NCBI GenBank assembly: GCA_009917695.1
Contig: JAACJG010000002.1
Span: 1 to 64,000, forward strand
Direction of reading: 5' to 3'
Origin: Candidatus Rifleibacterium amylolyticum
GTDB lineage: Bacteria > Muiribacteriota > Ozemobacteria > Ozemobacterales > Ozemobacteraceae
Length of the DNA stretch: 64,000 nt
Both the position numbers and the translations under genes were made by a program. The notes under the pieces are model-generated. The model ran no database searches and was not told the DNA's origin. It worked only from the letters and a program-made list of their open reading frames with translations. Each line of letters begins with the position of its first letter. The stretch's first letter is position 1. Of this stretch, positions 31,621 to 40,909 are shown in pieces.

Positions 31621-31651
31621 ACATGGCAGATGATAACACCTTGGGGGTTGG

Positions 31652-31680
31652 TTGGCAAGAATTTTGTTGGGGCGCAAAAT
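31652..31680 (+). promoter_or_regulatory. Possible promoter for the UDP-sugar dehydrogenase gene
   Basis: TTGGCA (31652-31657) and CAAAAT (31675-31680) are 17 bp apart, a fair -35 and a weak -10. A strong Shine-Dalgarno (GGAGG) precedes the ATG at 31747. This is an inference from spacing only. Confidence 0.3.
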
Positions 31681-31746
31681 ACTTGCAGCAGCAGGCGGTG
31701 TGCGGTAAGATTCCCTTTGAAAAAAAATGACCGGAGGATAATTCTC

Positions 31747-33171
31747 ATGAAAAAACTGTTTGATCAGCTTAAAGGCCGCAAGACGAAGCTTGGGGTTGTC
31801 GGGCTCGGTTATGTCGGGTTGCCGCTTGCTCATGCCTTTGCGCCGCATTTTGATGTCGTTGGTTTCGATGTTAACGAAGCCAAGGTTGAGCTGATGAAAC
31901 AGGGAATCGATCCGACCGGCGAAGTGCCGGCGGGGGGGCTCAAAGAGGTCAAAATCGACTTCACTACCAACCCAGAAAAGCTCTCGGAATGCCGTTTTAT
32001 TGTCGTCGCCGTGCCTACTCCAGTCGATCGCAACAAGCGGCCCGACCTTACTCCGCTCGTGCTCAGCTCTACTACCGTCGGCAAATACATGCCGAAAAAC
32101 AGCATAATCGTCTACGAATCGACCGTCTACCCCGGCGTGACCGAAGACGAATGCGTGCCGCTGCTCGAAAAGAATTCAGGGTTCGAGTATCTGAAAGATT
32201 TCAGAGTCGGCTACAGCCCCGAACGCATCAACCCCGGCGACCAGGTGCATCGCCTGCAGACCATAACCAAGATTGTTTCGGGCTGCGATGCCGAGACACT
32301 CGAGACCGTCGCGAAGGTTTACGAAACCATCATCGAGGCCGGGGTGCATCGCGCCTCGTCGATCAAGGTCGCCGAAGCCGCCAAGGTTATCGAAAATACC
32401 CAGCGCGACGTCAATATCGCCCTGATGAACGAACTGTCGATCATCTTCCATAAGCTCGGTATCGATACGCTCGAAGTGCTGCGCGCGGCCGGCACCAAAT
32501 GGAACTTTCTTAAATTCTTCCCCGGGCTCGTCGGCGGGCACTGCATCGGGGTCGATCCCTACTATCTCACCTTCAAGGCCGAAGAACTCGGCTATCACCC
32601 CGAAGTCATACTGTCTGGGCGCCGCATCAATGACGGAATGGGCAAATATGTCGCCGAAAATACCGTCAAGAAGCTGATTCGCGCCGGCAAGGCCGTTAAA
32701 GGCGCGAAGGTGCTGATACTGGGTCTGACCTTCAAAGAAAACGTCGGCGATATCCGCAATACCAAAGTCGTCGATATCGTCAGTGAACTCGCCGAATACG
32801 ATGTTGAAAGTCTGGTGTATGATCCTTATGCTGATGCGGATGAGGTTTTGCATGAGTATGGGGAGATAATTAGATCATCGCAATCTGGGGACACGATTTC
32901 GCATTCCGGGGACACGATCCCGAATTCTGCGAATTCTGGTCATGTCCCCAGAATGCTTCATGTCCCCGCAATGCTGCTGCCGTCACTCGACAAGCTGCCG
33001 GCCGTCGATGCCGTCATTCTCGCGGTTCCGCACGACAAGTTCAAAGAACTCACGCTCGACAAGCTCGCCGGGTTCTGCCGGAAGGGGGCGACGCCGATTG
33101 TGGTTGATATCAAGGGGATGTTCGATCCTGAGGCGGCGGTCAAGCAGGGTGTCAGGTATTGGAGATTGTGA
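31747..33171 (+). CDS. tviB: UDP-N-acetyl-hexosamine 6-dehydrogenase (TviB/WbpA/WecC type), full-length copy
   Basis: A 474-residue nucleotide-sugar dehydrogenase. The N-terminal NAD domain is KLGVVGLGYVGLPLA (14-28). Other landmarks are VYESTVYPGVTEDE (122-135), the EAAKVIENTQRDVN helix (210-223), the catalytic cysteine C266 in [13 protein letters not shown], and the C-terminal UDP-binding domain with [17 protein letters not shown] (324-340). It oxidises UDP-HexNAc to the uronate. Residues about 373-410 (EIIRSSQSGDT...VPAML) are absent from the otherwise near-identical copy at 35.9 kb and are encoded by repeat DNA. GGAGG precedes the ATG at 31747. It is the parent of six fragments downstream. 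Confidence 0.9.
   Translation: MKKLFDQLKGRKTKLGVVGLGYVGLPLAHAFAPHFDVVGFDVNEAKVELMKQGIDPTGEVPAGGLKEVKIDFTTNPEKLSECRFIVVAVPTPVDRNKRPDLTPLVLSSTTVGKYMPKNSIIVYESTVYPGVTEDECVPLLEKNSGFEYLKDFRVGYSPERINPGDQVHRLQTITKIVSGCDAETLETVAKVYETIIEAGVHRASSIKVAEAAKVIENTQRDVNIALMNELSIIFHKLGIDTLEVLRAAGTKWNFLKFFPGLVGGHCIGVDPYYLTFKAEELGYHPEVILSGRRINDGMGKYVAENTVKKLIRAGKAVKGAKVLILGLTFKENVGDIRNTKVVDIVSELAEYDVESLVYDPYADADEVLHEYGEIIRSSQSGDTISHSGDTIPNSANSGHVPRMLHVPAMLLPSLDKLPAVDAVILAVPHDKFKELTLDKLAGFCRKGATPIVVDIKGMFDPEAAVKQGVRYWRL
32863..32973. repeat. In-frame repeat insert within the dehydrogenase gene
   Basis: About 105 bp present here but not in the second copy of the gene. It contains tctggggacacgatt and tccggggacacgatc in tandem, then gaattctgcgaattctgg, then the inverse form tcatgtccccagaatg and catgtccccgc. 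The CTGGGGACA/TGTCCCCAG arms make it palindromic. The sequence resembles REP-type elements linked to Y1 tyrosine transposases, but no such transposase is in the window. Confidence 0.75.
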
Positions 33172-33280: not shown

Positions 33281-33291
33281 TGTGTTAAAAG

Positions 33292-34310
33292 TCAAGTCGT
33301 TTTTGCTCTACACAGGCTAATTTCCTTATAATTTTCAGTGAAAGACTCTCCTTTCCTGGCCAGCGCCCTTGCCTGCCGAAGAAGTTTATTCGCAACGCTA
33401 TCAAAGCTACTTTTGCAGGCTTTCCTGCCTGTCTTAGTCTTAAATAGGTTTCCTGACAAGCATCATTGCACCTGGACGCCGATAAGGCAGCCATATAAAA
33501 CAACGTTCTGAGCATGGAATTGCCCTTTTTGCTTATGCTTCCGCTTTTATCTACGCTGGATCCTGATTTGCACACTTTTGGACATAACCCGGCAAAGGCA
33601 GCTGCTTTGTTTGAGTCAGAAAACCCTGAAAAATCACCATAGAAGCATATTATTGCACCAGCAACAGCAGATCCAATGCCGGGTATGCTCTTATACTGCT
33701 TATAGAGTTCAGGGCAGTGTTTGGTTAGAATCTTCTCAATATCCCTGTTTATCTCTTTGATGGCGACATTCAGATGGTTAATCTCATTTTTAACGTGAGC
33801 GATCAAGCTGGGTGCATTACATTCAAAGGAGTTGTTGTTGAGCGCCTCAAGGTAATTGCGATTTTGAGTAATATGCTTTTTGAAAAAGCCGATCAGTTTT
33901 AACTTGGCCTGGACTTCGCATTGATAGGCTTCCTTAAGCTTTGTGGACACGGGTTCATTTGTAAATCCATATTCTGCTATGGTTCTGGCATCTACCGGGT
34001 CGGTTTTCGTTCTCAGCAGGTTCTTCATCGTTGCAAAAGAATGTATTCTGAGGGGATTTTCAACTGCTACATCAAAGCCTCGACTTACAAATTCAACAAA
34101 AGCAGCGGAATGATACACGCCGGTGGCTTCCAGAACAACGCGGCATGAGTCGGGAGAAATCTTGAAATGGGTTATGATCTTTTGCACGGTCGAAAGTTTG
34201 TTGCTGTTAAAGCTGCGTGTCTTGTGCTCTGTTCCGTTATACAAGCAGCAATCAAGACTTTCTTTGGACACGTCTATGCCAAGATAGGTCGGACGATCAG
34301 TTTTTTTCAT
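33292..34310 (-). mobile_element. IS110-family transposase gene, frameshifted near its 3' end
   Basis: The frame from ATG 34310 has the RuvC-like DEDD domain (YLGIDVSKESLDCCLY with D13, VVLEATGVYH, TKTDPVDARTIAEY) and the transposase_20 domain (IPGIGSAVAGAII, FAGLCP, SGSISKKGNSMLRTLFYMAA with the catalytic Ser region). From about residue 305 the frame reads LRINFFGRQ, unlike the family. Shifting at the AAA run 33403-33405 (one base short) restores VANKLLRQARALARKG and a stop at 33292, which is the typical IS110 tail. The open frame as it stands ends at 33285. The element is thus decayed, or the run is a sequencing error. Confidence 0.85.
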
Positions 34311-34322
34311 TACACACTCCAC

Positions 34323-34657: not shown

Positions 34658-35701
34658 TCAGGGACGTTTTTTGGCTCGGGGTTTCCGGGTTGGGGTGTAA
34701 TCGGCGACGGGTTCTGAGACTTTATTGGCTGGCCGGTCAATAGAATCCAGGTATTCTTGAAACCCTTCGAGACTTTCGGTAACTGCTGCGTTGATTACAA
34801 GGTTTTTCAGCGTTTCGAGTTCGTTGATGTTCTCTATTGCTGAATTAATGCCAGCTGGTATTCGCCCGAAGCGTAATTGAAGAATGGTGCTCAAAGAGGC
34901 TTTATGAGAGGCAGCACCTTCTTCCAGGCCTTTCTCGATGCCTTTCTCGATGCCTTTGGCGATTCCACGTCTTTCGAAAGTTGTAACGTAACGCATATTT
35001 TCCTCCAGTTCGTTCAGGGTTTCAGTATAAGCGCTTTCATAGTCGGCCGGCAAGGTCATTATCCAGTCAAGAAACCGGAAGAGCTCCAGGATGGTTTGAC
35101 GATCGAATTTCGCCTTATACAGGGCCCGGGCAGCGTATGTCTTGAACTCAAGACGCTTTGCATCGTTGCCAATGGTTTCCATTGTTTTCAGATGCGCGAA
35201 AGCAGCTATGGCAAAGGGATTCTGGCTGTTTTCAAGGTTTTCGACCTTGTTGGCGACATCAAGAAGCTTCACCATCGGAAACCGAAAACTCAACTCGCAA
35301 CCCCATAGTTCGTGACAGTATTCCTGCGGACGCCACCTGATGTTTTTGTCGGCAAGCAATGCCAGACTGGCAATTCTCTTCTGGTAGCGATCGAAAATCC
35401 GGTAATGGTAAACCAGCATTCTTCTGGCAAGATCGCTGTCCTCCTGGCCCTGAATTTCGAGATGAACCAGCACCCAGGCTTCCTGGCCAGACAACTCGTT
35501 GACTTTGACAAGCTTGTCGGCATAACGCCGCCCGGTAGCTCCTTGAACAGCTATTTTTTGAAATTCTTTGTCAAGAAACTCGTATTTCTTCTGCCAATCG
35601 ATTCTAGACGCTATTTCAGGAAAGAAAAATTCCATGAACTGCTGGAAATATTTCTCGACCAGATCTTTCCATGGAGAATCATAATCTGCGCGCTTTGCCA
35701 T
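34658..35701 (-). CDS. Rpn-family recombination-promoting nuclease / putative transposase (intact copy)
   Basis: A 347-residue PD-(D/E)XK nuclease-like protein. The N-terminal core holds DYDSPWKDLVEKYFQQFMEFFFP, QKIAVQGATGRRYADKLVKV and VLVHLEIQGQED (the ExQ part of the nuclease motif near residue 85). A middle helical part runs to about 220, then comes a repeat-rich segment RGIAKGIEKGIEKGLEEG near 247-264. RpnA-type proteins promote RecA-independent recombination and DNA cleavage in E. coli. This gene together with its upstream flank is duplicated at 37.7-38.9 kb, where it is broken. Confidence 0.85.
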   Translation of the reverse strand: MAKRADYDSPWKDLVEKYFQQFMEFFFPEIASRIDWQKKYEFLDKEFQKIAVQGATGRRYADKLVKVNELSGQEAWVLVHLEIQGQEDSDLARRMLVYHYRIFDRYQKRIASLALLADKNIRWRPQEYCHELWGCELSFRFPMVKLLDVANKVENLENSQNPFAIAAFAHLKTMETIGNDAKRLEFKTYAARALYKAKFDRQTILELFRFLDWIMTLPADYESAYTETLNELEENMRYVTTFERRGIAKGIEKGIEKGLEEGAASHKASLSTILQLRFGRIPAGINSAIENINELETLKNLVINAAVTESLEGFQEYLDSIDRPANKVSEPVADYTPTRKPRAKKRP

Positions 35702-35821
35702 GTTTTTGTCCTTATTGAAGACATCATCATATGATACCCTGCCACCTCGTTGTAAATCAACAGTTCCTGCGAATGTCGGCCAGTCAGCGTAAGAGCAACG
35801 GACTGGCTCATTGGCACAAAT

Positions 35822-36864
35822 CTGGGACAGGCTGGCGGTTGCGGATGCACTTTCCCCCCAATTTGATGTTCGGCATTGATTTTAACCAGGAAAAAGTTAA
35901 TCTGATTAACAGAGAATCGACCGTCTACCCCGGCGTCACCGAAGACGAATGCGTGCCGCTGCTCGAAAAGAATTCAGGGTTCGAGTATCTGAAAGATTTC
36001 AGAGTCGGCTACAGCCCCGAACGCATCAACCCCGGCGATCAGGTGCACCGGCTGCAGACCATCGTCAAGGTCGTTTCCGGCTGCGATGCCGAGACGCTCG
36101 AGACCGTCGCGAAGGTTTACGAAACCATCATCGAGGCCGGGGTGCATCGCGCCTCATCGATCAAGGTTGCCGAAGCTGCCAAGGTTATCGAAAATACCCA
36201 GCGTGACGTCAATATCGCCCTGATGAACGAACTGTCGATCATCTTCCATAAGCTCGGCATCGATACGCTCGAAGTGCTGCGCGCGGCCGGCACCAAATGG
36301 AACTTTCTCAAGTTCTTCCCCGGGCTCGTCGGCGGCCACTGCATCGGCGTCGACCCCTACTACCTGACCTACAAGGCCGAAGAACTCGGCTATCACCCCG
36401 AAGTTATTCTTTCCGGGCGCCGCATCAACGACGGAATGGGCAAATATGTCGCCGAAAATACCGTCAAGAAACTGATTCGCGCCGGCAAGGCGGTTAAAGG
36501 CGCGAAGGTGCTGATACTGGGTCTGACCTTCAAAGAAAACGTCGGCGATATCCGCAATACCAAAGTCGTCGATATCGTCAGCGAACTCGCTGAATACGAC
36601 GTCGAAAGCATGATTTTCGACCCCTACGCCGATGCCGAAGAAGTGCATCACGAATACGGGCTCGATATTCTGCCGTCACTCGAAAAGCTGCCGGCGGTCG
36701 ATGCTGTCGTTCTCGCAGTTCCACACGACAAATTCAAAGAACTCACGCTCGACAAGCTCGCCGGGTTCTGCCGTAAGGGCGCCACGCCGATTGTGGTTGA
36801 TATCAAGGGGATGTTTGATCCTGAGATGGCGACGAAGCAGGGCGTCAGGTATTGGAGATTGTGA
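35822..36864 (+). pseudogene. Dehydrogenase copy 2, lacking most of the NAD-binding half
   Basis: From 35914 (gaatcgaccgtctaccccgg) to the stop the sequence is almost identical to the full copy (residues about 123-474, without the repeat insert). Upstream, FGIDFNQEKVNLINR is a diverged remnant of residues about 37-52 (VGFDVNEAKVELMKQ), and a decayed stretch before that matches the first strand region out of frame. About 70 residues between the two are missing; the joint lies where gaatcga occurs in both flanks, so a short-homology deletion is likely. Without a Rossmann domain it cannot act alone. The open frame from 35731 (377 residues) is best seen as a pseudogene. Confidence 0.8.
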
Positions 36865-36970: not shown

Positions 36971-37276
36971 ATGAATCGCAAGCAGTTTATAATTGGGCTG
37001 ATACAGACTCATCGTCAGAAACTTCTGCAGATGGGCGTTAAGGATATAGGTATTTTTGGCTCGGTTGCAAAAGGCGAAGACATGCCCACAAGTGATTATG
37101 ACATTCTGGTCGAGTTCTATGAAAACCACAGGAATCTCAAGTCTTTCAATGCCTTATGTGATTTCCTTGAAAGCAATCTTGGTAGTAATTTCGATCTTGT
37201 TACCAGACAGGGATTAAGCCCCTATATGTCTGACCGAATACTGCAGGAAACAGAATATGTCGATATCGCCACATGA
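36971..37276 (+). CDS. MNT-type nucleotidyltransferase (antitoxin of MNT-HEPN pair)
   Basis: A 101-residue minimal nucleotidyltransferase with the GSVAKGE...SDYDILVEF catalytic motif (GSxxxG, DxD) at about residues 30-48 and a third acid in NFDLVT near 76. MntA-type antitoxins AMPylate the HEPN toxin near its active site. It overlaps the following HEPN gene by 20 bases. The Shine-Dalgarno is fair (gagaggg...). It is intact, unlike its partner. Confidence 0.85.
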   Translation: MNRKQFIIGLIQTHRQKLLQMGVKDIGIFGSVAKGEDMPTSDYDILVEFYENHRNLKSFNALCDFLESNLGSNFDLVTRQGLSPYMSDRILQETEYVDIAT

Positions 37277-37591
37277 TCTGCTGCATCATATAATCGATGA
37301 AATCAACTTTTTGATTGCAGAGTCTGGGGTTCTGGACAAGAATTCTTTTCTGGCTGATGAGAAAGCGAAAAGAGCTTTTGCCAGAAGTTTTGAAATTATT
37401 GTGAAGCGGCCAAAAAGATTCCAGATGATTTCAAACAATCTCACGCAGATATTGAGTGGTCCGCAATGGCCCGTCTGCGTGATAAGCTGATTCACCATTA
37501 CTTTGGTGTAGACTATGAACTTGTCTGGAACATCGTAGTAGAAGACATTCCCTCGCTGAGAAATAAAATTTCAAACTTACTCGAAGAATAA
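37257..37591 (+). pseudogene. HepT-like HEPN toxin gene with a one-base deletion
   Basis: The first frame (from 37257) reads MSISPHDLLHHIIDEINFLI...FARSFEIIVK and then runs into an unrelated tail with a stop at 37490. Shifting at 37401 gives EAAKKIPDDFKQSHADIEW, then RLRDKLIHHYFGVD with the RxxxxH toxin motif, then ENIV-like WNIVVEDIPSLR, ending TAA 37589-37591. Expected family sequence SFEIIGEAAKKIP indicates loss of one G in attattggtgaag. The toxin is therefore inactivated unless the base is a sequencing error. The partner MNT frame is whole. Confidence 0.8.
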
Positions 37592-37697: not shown

Positions 37698-38048
37698 TCA
37701 GCGGCGCTTTCTGGTGCGAGGTTTCCGGGTTGGAGTATAATCGGCGACGGGTTCTGAGACTTTGTTGGCTGGCCGGTCAATAGAATCCAGGTATTCTTGA
37801 AACCCTTCGAGACTTTCGGCTAGAGCAGCCTTGATAACCAGGTTTTTAAGGGCTTCGAGATCGTTGATATTCTCGATGGCAGAGTTGATTTGGGTCGGGA
37901 TTCGCTTGAAACGCGACTGAAGAATCGTATTCAAAGATGCCTTATGAGAAGCAATGCCTTCTCCCAGGCCTTTCTCTATGCCTTTCTCGATGCCTTTCTC
38001 TATGCCTTTCTCGATGCCACGTCTTTCGAAAGTAGTAACGTAACGCAT
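37698..38048 (-). pseudogene. Rpn nuclease copy 2, C-terminal part
   Basis: It encodes MRYVTTFERRGIEKGIEKG...PTRKPRTRKRR, which aligns with residues about 236-347 of the intact gene. The GIEKG minisatellite has one more unit than the intact copy. The part upstream on the coding strand is replaced by a four-helix-bundle gene, and the N-terminal piece lies beyond it at 38587-38672. The piece is open from ATG 38048, but as a fragment it lacks the nuclease core. Confidence 0.85.
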
Positions 38049-38073
38049 ATTTTCCTCCAGTTCGTTCAGGGTT

Positions 38074-38517
38074 TCAGTCTTTGTCGTTGTCGTCGTCGTC
38101 GTCGTTGTCGCTATCGTTGTCTTTGTCTTCGTCGTCCCGATAGTATTCAGCCGGTTCTTCTCTCGCAGAATAATCTCGTTTACCCAGCATAGTAAGCATT
38201 GAGACTACCCGGTAAAGCAAGTCTTTTCCCTCAGCACTTTCTTCTTCCGACAAAATTTTACATATTTCAAGAATATCCTGAATTGAAGCGCATTCCAAAG
38301 CGGAACCACGGGCAATTTCAAAAAAGCGACGACGATCCGATACTGTTCCTCTTCCATTTCCCTCGGCAATGTTCTGAGGTATCGATTGAGAAGCACGTAA
38401 AAGCTGATCCCTGGCATACCGGTTGGCACCGTCAAGTTTTTTTGCAAGCTCATAAGCCCAGGCAACATAGTGCAAGGCAACCCTATAAACATCTAGTTTT
38501 TCGTGACCGAACTTCAT
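38074..38517 (-). CDS. Four-helix-bundle protein (S23 / 23S rRNA intervening-sequence protein family)
   Basis: A 147-residue protein: FGHEKLDVYRVALHYVAWAYELA, SIPQNIAEGNGRGTVSDRR, FFEIARGSALECASIQDILEI, the signature of S23-type bundles first described from 23S rRNA intervening sequences. The last 22 residues (DDEDKDNDSDNDDDDDNDKD region) are low-complexity acid. They are encoded by a TCGTTGTCG-type tract that also occurs, inverted (gacaacgacaacgatcacg), just before the start codon. The whole lies inside a broken Rpn gene, so it arrived as a cassette with terminal inverted tracts. Confidence 0.85.
   Translation of the reverse strand: MKFGHEKLDVYRVALHYVAWAYELAKKLDGANRYARDQLLRASQSIPQNIAEGNGRGTVSDRRRFFEIARGSALECASIQDILEICKILSEEESAEGKDLLYRVVSMLTMLGKRDYSAREEPAEYYRDDEDKDNDSDNDDDDDNDKD
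38083..38145. repeat. Left low-complexity terminal tract of the four-helix-bundle cassette
   Basis: A run of tcgttgtcgtcgtcgtcg units, partly coding the acidic tail of the bundle protein. Its inverse complement (cgacaacgacaacgatcacg, 38530-38559) lies at the other end of the cassette, so the two could pair as a long stem, as in rRNA intervening sequences. Confidence 0.7.
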
Positions 38518-38529
38518 TTATCACCTTTT

Positions 38530-38590
38530 TCGACAACGACAACGATCACGACAACCGACTGGCTTCGCCAGTCTGACAACGAAAAGACAG
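38530..38590. repeat. Right terminal tract of the four-helix-bundle cassette
   Basis: It contains cgacaacgacaacgatcacg, a short hairpin actggcttcgccagt, and ctgacaacgaaaagac, directly before the Rpn sequence resumes at aggaaagaaaaattcc. It is inverted with respect to the left tract. Confidence 0.7.
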
Positions 38591-38672
38591 GAAAGAAAAA
38601 TTCCATGAACTGCTGGAAATATTTCTCGACCAGATCCTTCCATGGAGAATCATAATCTGCGCGCTTTGCCAT
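38587..38672 (-). pseudogene. Rpn nuclease copy 2, N-terminal stub
   Basis: It encodes MAKRADYDSPWKDLVEKYF followed by QQFMEFFFP, identical to the intact Rpn start, and then runs into cassette DNA (VFSLSDWRSQ). The matching C-terminal part is at 37698-38048. About 600 bp of the middle of the gene present in copy 1 (about 35024-35618) is missing. Confidence 0.85.
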
Positions 38673-38808: not shown

Positions 38809-39383
38809 GGTTGCGCATGCACTTTCCCACCAATTTGATGTTCGGCTTCGATGCTAACCAGGAAAAAGTTAATCTGATTAAACAGAGAATCGACGGTTGC
38901 ACCCGGGCGCGCTCCATCCTGAGGCGCTCGTGCATAAGTCACATCCTGTGACGAACGCTCGAAGTGCTGCGCGCGGCCAGCACCAAGTGGAACTTTTTGA
39001 AATTCTTCCCGGGGCTCGTCGGCGGGCACTGCATCGGGGTCGATCCCTACTATCTCACCTACAAGGCTGAAGAACTAGGCTATCACCCGGAAGTCATTCT
39101 TTCCGGGCGCCGCATCAACGACAGTATGGGCAAGTTTGTCGCCGAAAATACTGTCAAGAAGCTGATTCGGGTTGGCAAGGCGGTCATCCCTGCTTCGCTG
39201 AAGCTACGCAGGACTAAGGAGGGCGCGAAGGTGCTGATACTGGGCCTGACCTTCAAAGAAAATGTCGGAGATATCCGCAATACCAAGGTCGTCGATATCG
39301 TCAGTGAACTCGCCGAATATGACGTCGAAAGCATGACGGAGAGAGGGCAATCCGCCGATTTCGCAGATTCCCGCCTTCGCTAA
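38809..39383 (+). pseudogene. Dehydrogenase copy 3, fragment
   Basis: A 5' remnant (LMFGFDANQEKVNLIKQRID) is followed by a short dispersed repeat. The C-terminal half then runs from gctcgaagtgctgcg (38958) to VESM near 39335, where the 'atgacggagagagggcaatc' repeat takes over and adds an alien tail. Within it, [13 protein letters not shown] (from about 39184) is a repeat-encoded in-frame insert after GKA. The catalytic-site segment [12 protein letters not shown] is kept, but the NAD domain and the final third are gone. Confidence 0.85.
39333..39357. repeat. Repeat 'atgacggagagagggcaatc', copy 2
   Basis: Same block as at 34592 and 45549. It joins dehydrogenase copy 3 at a shared ATGA, so it was probably acquired by short-homology joining. 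Confidence 0.75.
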
Positions 39384-40554: not shown

Positions 40555-40909
40555 GTTGGCAGCATGCATGCTTTTTCCCCGCAAACGTCTTTAAATCAAA
40601 CCATGTAGCATCGGGGTCGACCCCTACTATCTGACCTACAAGGCCGAAGAGCTCGGGTATCACCCCGAAGTTATTCTTTCCGGGCGCCGCATCAATGACG
40701 GAATGGGCAAATATGTCGCCGATGCCGAAGAAGTGCACCACGAATACGGTCTCGAAATTCTTCCATCACTCGAAAAGCTGCCGGCGGTCGATGCGGTGGT
40801 GGTTGCCGGGTTCTGCCGTAAGGGTGCCACGCCGATCGTCGTCGATATCAAGGGCATGTTCGATCCTGAGACGGCGACGAAGCAGGGCGTCAGGTATTGG
40901 AGATTGTGA
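40555..40909 (+). pseudogene. Dehydrogenase copy 4, internally deleted fragment
   Basis: A decayed 5' flank (gcatgcatgctttttccccg) leads to [20 protein letters not shown], then to [11 protein letters not shown]. There it jumps to AEEVHHEYG at a shared GCCGA, dropping about 60 residues. It then jumps from DAVVV to AGFCRKG, dropping another stretch, before the normal end VRYWRL. Both joins keep the frame. It lacks the catalytic Cys and is non-functional. Confidence 0.85.

Follow-up and report, generated by a model that had tools for sequence, protein, structure and literature searches.

We found that a stretch of 64,000 nucleotides from Candidatus Rifleibacterium amylolyticum (GenBank assembly GCA_009917695.1, contig JAACJG010000002.1, positions 1 to 64,000; here called the window) carries, within a disrupted second copy of an Rpn gene, a compact S23 cassette: a single S23-type four-helix-bundle gene between two inverted arrays of 6-bp repeats. 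In many bacterial phyla, related cassettes appear to have landed next to ordinary genes or within them. The unit is discrete and its two ends match each other within a copy; period and repeat words are specific to the subfamily, the gene is under purifying selection, sense orientation predominates, and orthologous sites differ in whether the unit is present. We read the S23 cassette as a widespread small mobile element, one four-helix-bundle gene between inverted 6- or 7-bp arrays, whose protein would bind the arrays while an activity supplied in trans would cut and join. We give this reading a probability of about 0.62.

The cassette in the second Rpn copy

The edges of the cassette were set by aligning the two Rpn copies of the window. 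Copy 1 (34658 to 35701, minus strand) is intact, encodes 347 amino acids and serves as the reference for the uninterrupted gene; its matches to PF04754 (19.3 bits) and TIGR01784 (23.1 bits) are weak, both falling under the cut-off. The copies agree up to position 38078 (35026 in copy 1) and again from 38588 (35617 in copy 1). Between these points, copy 2 holds 509 bp without counterpart in copy 1 (38079 to 38587, minus strand), which stand in place of 590 bp present only in copy 1 (35027 to 35616, minus strand). The rest of copy 2 consists of two minus-strand remnants: a C-terminal one at 37698 to 38078, delimited by the list of open reading frames (ORFs) and the alignment, and an N-terminal one at 38588 to 38672, which has a 99% match to 35617 to 35729. 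A preliminary description of this DNA had proposed that an S23-type gene was inserted here as a cassette with the loss of about 600 bp of Rpn, and the alignment bears this out. We infer that a redundant Rpn copy received the cassette and lost the 590 bp on insertion or later.

Between the arrays lies the S23 ORF alone (38074 to 38517, minus strand, 147 amino acids). It matches PF05635 (23S_rRNA_IVP) with 81.1 bits against a cut-off of 33.8, and TIGR02436 with 72.7 bits against a cut-off of 24, placing the protein in the S23 family. Its predicted structure (mean predicted local distance difference test score, pLDDT, 88.1) is a four-helix bundle. A structure search with this model returned 2GSC (TM-score 0.90 by target, E 3.9e-6) and 2RLD, followed by the Avd proteins of diversity-generating retroelements (DGRs; 4dwl and 8ub7), and a profile search of PDB sequences recovered 2GSC and 2RLD as well. 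No nuclease, transposase or reverse transcriptase (RT) domain was recognised in the protein. The window ORFs and Pfam matches revealed no transposase or recombinase in the cassette, which sets it apart from a transposon or insertion sequence (IS). The S23 gene is under purifying selection, with ratios of nonsynonymous to synonymous substitution (dN/dS) of about 0.03 to 0.31 in close pairs.

The two arrays face each other with a period of six. Downstream of the gene (38079 to 38142), hexamers of the form TCGnnn on the plus strand include TCGTTG TCGTCG TCGTCG; upstream (38526 to 38587), hexamers of the form nnnCGA on the plus strand (CAACGA CAACGA TCACGA) are interrupted by a hairpin with a 7-bp stem (GACTGGC-TTC-GCCAGTC, 38557 to 38573). 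Positions 38086 to 38110 form an inverted repeat with 38531 to 38555, 25 nt long and 88% complementary. In the RNA fold of the unit, a long stem between both arrays encloses the gene in the minimum-energy and the centroid structure alike (z = -2.96), and the small hairpin is present in it too. The downstream array is also coding: it is translated as the acidic D-x-D-x tail of the S23 protein (DKDNDSDNDDDDDNDKD), and the stop codon (TGA, 38074 to 38076) is supplied by the Rpn flank. A search for short-period inverted arrays had 1 match in the 64 kb, the cassette itself, and 0 in each of 10 Markov controls. The ends are inverted as first described, but calling them low-complexity tracts undersells hexamer or heptamer arrays that are specific to a subfamily.

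In copy 1, the word TTTCAG borders the lost Rpn segment on both sides (35020 to 35025 and 35614 to 35619), which would fit a deletion by short homology as the cassette entered or later. The preliminary description had seen a shared ttcag at both borders and suggested such a step; the word is there, and the step would be compatible with it. Together with the 590-bp loss, the shared word also suits a reading that we consider quite unlikely, in which the window copy is the product of a chance recombination: repair through microhomology would have placed an existing S23 gene in Rpn copy 2. Against this, the borders of the unit coincide exactly with its arrays, and the same holds at other loci. The loss of target DNA is not typical: the other two copies in the genome have direct repeats instead.

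Matched ends across copies and phyla

Three genes in the genome match PF05635, and all three carry inverted hexamer-array ends, each with its own words. The copy on contig C8 (L001) has GATTAC/GAGCAC and the copy on contig C4 (L003), whose reading frame is broken, has TCGGGA/CCGATA; at their edges are direct repeats of 16 bp and 21 bp, respectively, each across the neighbouring gene's stop codon. The five other genomes of the genus contained no S23 genes. The preliminary description had proposed to check the rRNA genes of the organism for the same element; the assembled 23S gene (whole model covered, 3048 bp) had no S23 match.

A scan of one genome per species with the window's subfamily as query yielded 390 related stretches, and 80 loci among them were read. 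For 27 loci of the same phylum, the inverted match between a copy's own ends averaged 19.1, compared with 9.5 across copies, and the highest of 20,000 permutations gave 15.9. The 78 loci of the window's subfamily averaged 21.7 for own ends and 13.7 across copies (highest permutation 15.8); the score of one locus (L043) is inflated by runs of N, and the own-end mean is about 21.2 when it is removed. This subfamily has a period of six: the autocorrelation at lag 6 is 0.475 and 0.415, against roughly 0.25 for the adjacent lags and 0.28 to 0.29 in the far flanks. Other S23 subfamilies have a period of seven (0.405 and 0.416), and this periodicity is absent in their far flanks. In most members of the hexamer subfamily the ORF extends into the array, and the protein closes with a D-x-D-x, EYEY or DNDN tail.

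The words common to both ends correlate with protein identity across phyla (Mantel r 0.586, reached in 0 of 2000 permutations). The closest relative of the window copy is L038, from a metagenome-assembled genome of Thiodictyon in another phylum, and the two have repeat words in common. The S23 tree pairs them with support of 99/86, places another copy from the window genome elsewhere and mixes phyla; it was built on 116 columns, and many of its forks are unresolved.

The upstream neighbour ORF lies on the same strand as S23 in 80 of 91 loci (11 opposite) and the downstream neighbour in 59 of 89; neighbours were called by length, as the longest ORF, and single assignments may be wrong. The genes upstream are unrelated to one another and include GatB, a DHPS-like protein, an amidase, glutamate synthase, an M50 peptidase and a P-type ATPase, among others. 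None of 99 S23 loci lay inside an rRNA gene. A few relatives occur on cyanobacterial plasmids, and none was found in IMG/VR or a phage collection, for which reason phage-borne spread was rejected.

One unit (L006, G021:C4:151367-154684) sits within a methylase-like, PglX-like ORF that stays open for 1089 codons through both arrays and the S23 gene, which itself reads in another frame than the enclosing ORF. The methylase-like call was made by eye from the motifs DPACGSGHFL and HNLHGIDIDPRA; a Pfam scan of the upstream piece (first frame) had no match. In-frame passage within other genes was rejected as a general habit: a second forward frame is open in L006 only, and the open antisense frames of GC-rich loci were judged uninformative.

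Occupied, empty and inverted sites

Orthologous sites with and without the unit were found, as the preliminary description had proposed to look for. At the site of L001, genome G002 lacks the cassette and has a single copy of CTAATACTCGT. The gene at the L005 site is absent in three relatives, among which G024 retains a gene-less inverted array with similar words, and the S23 gene at the L020 site is absent in G027. Gene-less inverted short-period arrays stand after stop codons where relatives have S23 units at L151 (G024:C27:140200-141300) and L119 (G002:C43).

Loci L012 and L029 represent one site in two species. Their flanks are 94 to 96% identical over 1.4 kb on each side, and the unit is inverted between them; its edges coincide with the arrays. 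The unit itself is only 84% identical. Because it diverges more than the flanks, separate insertions or a replacement are suggested rather than a simple flip.

The clearest empty site comes from cultured cyanobacteria and lies between cas6 and cas4 in a type I-D operon of the CRISPR (clustered regularly interspaced short palindromic repeats) system. Anabaena sp. 90 has an S23 unit there on plasmid pANA02 (L159, NC_019429.1:42792-46118), and its downstream array extends into the cas4 frame and provides a new start region. In Dolichospermum sp. UHCC 0315A the unit is absent and another palindromic stretch is found instead, with flanks that are 98.4% (1112 bp) and 99.5% (886 bp) identical. Two further relatives have a cas6-cas4 gap of only 23 and 36 bp, with no insertion. 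At this junction, Pseudanabaena galeata has another S23 unit, with heptamers unlike those of Anabaena sp. 90; ABRG5-3 lacks it. The cas6-cas4 junction of cyanobacterial type I-D operons (L159, L163 to L166) holds different insertions per strain.

These comparisons bear on whether the unit moves at all. Slippage and quasi-palindrome correction are known processes, and they would maintain the likeness between both arrays of a copy. S23 could be an ordinary small host gene whose tandem repeats grew by slippage, whose ends were matched by hairpin-templated correction, and whose sites differ by loss. We hold this to be very improbable, and it is already disfavoured: the junctions of the relatives are very short and uninterrupted, the neighbours are unrelated, phyla are intermixed in the tree, and insertions affect both a redundant Rpn copy and a methylase-like ORF. 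The empty orthologous sites, the inverted site, the unrelated neighbours and the locations outside rRNA support the earlier proposal that S23 elements can move outside rRNA.

How the cassette might move

In our reading, the S23 protein would recognise its own arrays, as DNA or RNA, and would bring both cassette ends together. Cutting and joining would be performed by a host activity supplied in trans, because the protein has no recognised nuclease, transposase or RT domain. The cassette would be transcribed from the promoter of the host gene, and sense copies would therefore persist.

Several points weigh against this interpretation. Binding of the arrays is a prediction, the cassette encodes no enzyme, and no partner came to light; RT genes occur in 22 of the 37 genomes of the phylum, but not consistently with S23. 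Direct repeats resembling target-site duplications are present in only a few of 104 loci (besides the two in the window genome, 27 bp at L035) and most loci have none; no uniform integration reaction is visible. G-U pairs on the sense strand are not in excess among the stem mismatches; in the window's subfamily the tendency is slightly the reverse. Bundle genes without such ends had been named in advance as counterexamples; most of those examined carry the ends, and 7 of 77 loci in the window's subfamily have no clear match. Finally, we infer mobility from presence and absence at orthologous sites, not from observed movement.

Movement might instead proceed at the RNA level. Under this rather unlikely alternative, an element RNA with paired ends like those of the intervening sequences (IVSs) of 23S rRNA would enter transcribed DNA through an RT, with the S23 protein in the role that the Avd pentamer has in a DGR. 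The S23 fold resembles that of Avd within the ribonucleoprotein of DGRs, the ends form a stem in the RNA fold (the z score given above), sense orientation prevails by 80 to 11, and RNase III excises rRNA IVSs from RNA (PMC4990558). However, within the phylum S23 is not accompanied by RT genes in a consistent way, and the stems have no G-U bias. One genome (G030) lacks RT genes but contains five S23 genes, and there is no RT gene near the window copy: those of the window genome (G000) lie at C1, C4:511662 and C8:355528, with none on the window contig, C2. An RT as obligatory partner was rejected, given the lack of association across the 37 genomes, and selection for an RNA hairpin was not supported, given the lack of a G-U excess. 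At one locus (L018, G029:C136:14318-17278), a weak S23 match adjoins an RT gene; this is probably the Avd of a DGR.

A second alternative, which we regard as unlikely, though slightly less so, places the hairpin in DNA. At replication forks the arrays would fold while the DNA is single-stranded, and either template switching or a host enzyme of the HUH or resolvase type would move the unit, as in REPIN/RAYT or IS200/IS605, and the S23 protein would only stabilise or regulate. Stem pairing without an RNA wobble bias fits this, as do the inverted array of similar repeats that G024 has, without a gene, at the L005 site and the inverted copy at one site (L012 and L029). No partner enzyme was identified, however, and gene-less hexamer arrays of the tested pattern had 0 matches in 37 genomes, the window's own included.

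GIY-YIG genes were considered as mobilising partners of the S23 cassette and rejected: one lies beyond L003, two others have different inverted repeats of their own, and no link was established. The first follows the damaged S23 copy (locus L003, C4, 531249-533939); another hexamer array and a further copy of the 21-bp border separate the two. The other two are nuclease genes of the window genome (L142, C2:370334; L146, C4:368090) between inverted short repeats of other kinds (GGGAATGACG; CATTGCGAGGAGCGAAGCGACGAAGC). Such genes are perhaps a parallel class of small gene cassettes.

Other features of the window

A nucleotide-sugar dehydrogenase gene (TviB-like) is present in full, partial and decayed copies at 31630 to 33171, 35731 to 36864, 38964 to 39383 and 40703 to 40909, duplicated along with Rpn. 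An IS110-like transposase ORF, named by eye, adjoins these repeats at 33285 to 34322. A nucleotidyltransferase ORF (PF01909) at 36971 to 37276 is followed by a HEPN-like, seemingly broken frame at 37257 to 37590, an arrangement that resembles an MNT-HEPN toxin-antitoxin pair.

Relation to known systems

Our search of open-licence papers turned up none that describes S23 genes outside rRNA with paired short tandem arrays. The function of the S23 protein and the origin of rRNA IVSs have been open questions for decades. If S23 genes are indeed the cargo of a widespread mobile unit with protein-matched arrays, both become testable on existing DNA and strains, for example at cas6-cas4 of Anabaena sp. 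90. Many short-period tandem repeats in uncultured bacteria would also be explained, and an element that seemingly moves without an enzyme of its own would be added to those known.

PF05635 proteins are homologous to Avd (PMC10053308). The window protein resembles Avd in fold (4dwl, 8ub7) but differs in sequence, with an identity of about 12%, and no RT, template repeat or variable repeat is linked to the cassette, as would be expected of a DGR. Other comparisons concern the repeats. In REPIN/RAYT systems the DNA units are reportedly small inverted palindromes located mainly next to genes, and a protein gene has its own repeats on either side. The S23 cassette shares both traits; however, RAYT is a Y1/HUH transposase and S23 a four-helix bundle without catalytic domain, and the S23 arrays are tandem 6- or 7-mers that differ between copies. 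Rickettsia palindromic elements and other miniature inverted-repeat transposable elements are inverted units that can sit in frame within ORFs. Unlike the S23 cassettes, they have no gene inside and no short tandem arrays. The TAACTGA repeats of Beggiatoaceae are intergenic direct repeats of heptamers (PMC4679880), a length also seen in S23 cassettes, and the searched text of that paper does not mention S23, IVSs or four-helix genes.

A close likeness is to the 23S IVSs with an S23p ORF, found in Coxiella and Leptospira, which resemble the cassettes in protein family, in ends that pair as RNA and in a unit length of about 430 to 500 nt. Until now the S23 protein has mostly been known from this setting, within rRNA genes of some bacteria. 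In Coxiella, the IVS measures 428 nt, its ends are complementary, and GACAGAT heptamers precede its S23p ORF; RNase III cuts the unit from the RNA, and IVSs have been proposed to be remnants of transposition (PMC4990558). Location separates the two: the window copy lies in Rpn, the 23S gene of its genome is free of S23, and all 99 loci surveyed are outside rRNA. The closing stem, by contrast, is common to both, given the complementary cassette ends and the RNA fold. Where the Coxiella IVS has heptamers before the ORF, S23 cassettes have arrays on both sides that follow the subfamily. Tentatively, and at somewhat less than even odds, S23 cassettes may form a separate class of mobile element, defined by a non-enzymatic protein with its own mirrored arrays, spread across phyla and a specificity code from protein to repeat, with the 23S IVSs as copies that landed in rRNA. 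The common protein family and the published GACAGAT heptamers of Coxiella would tie the rRNA IVSs to the cassette.
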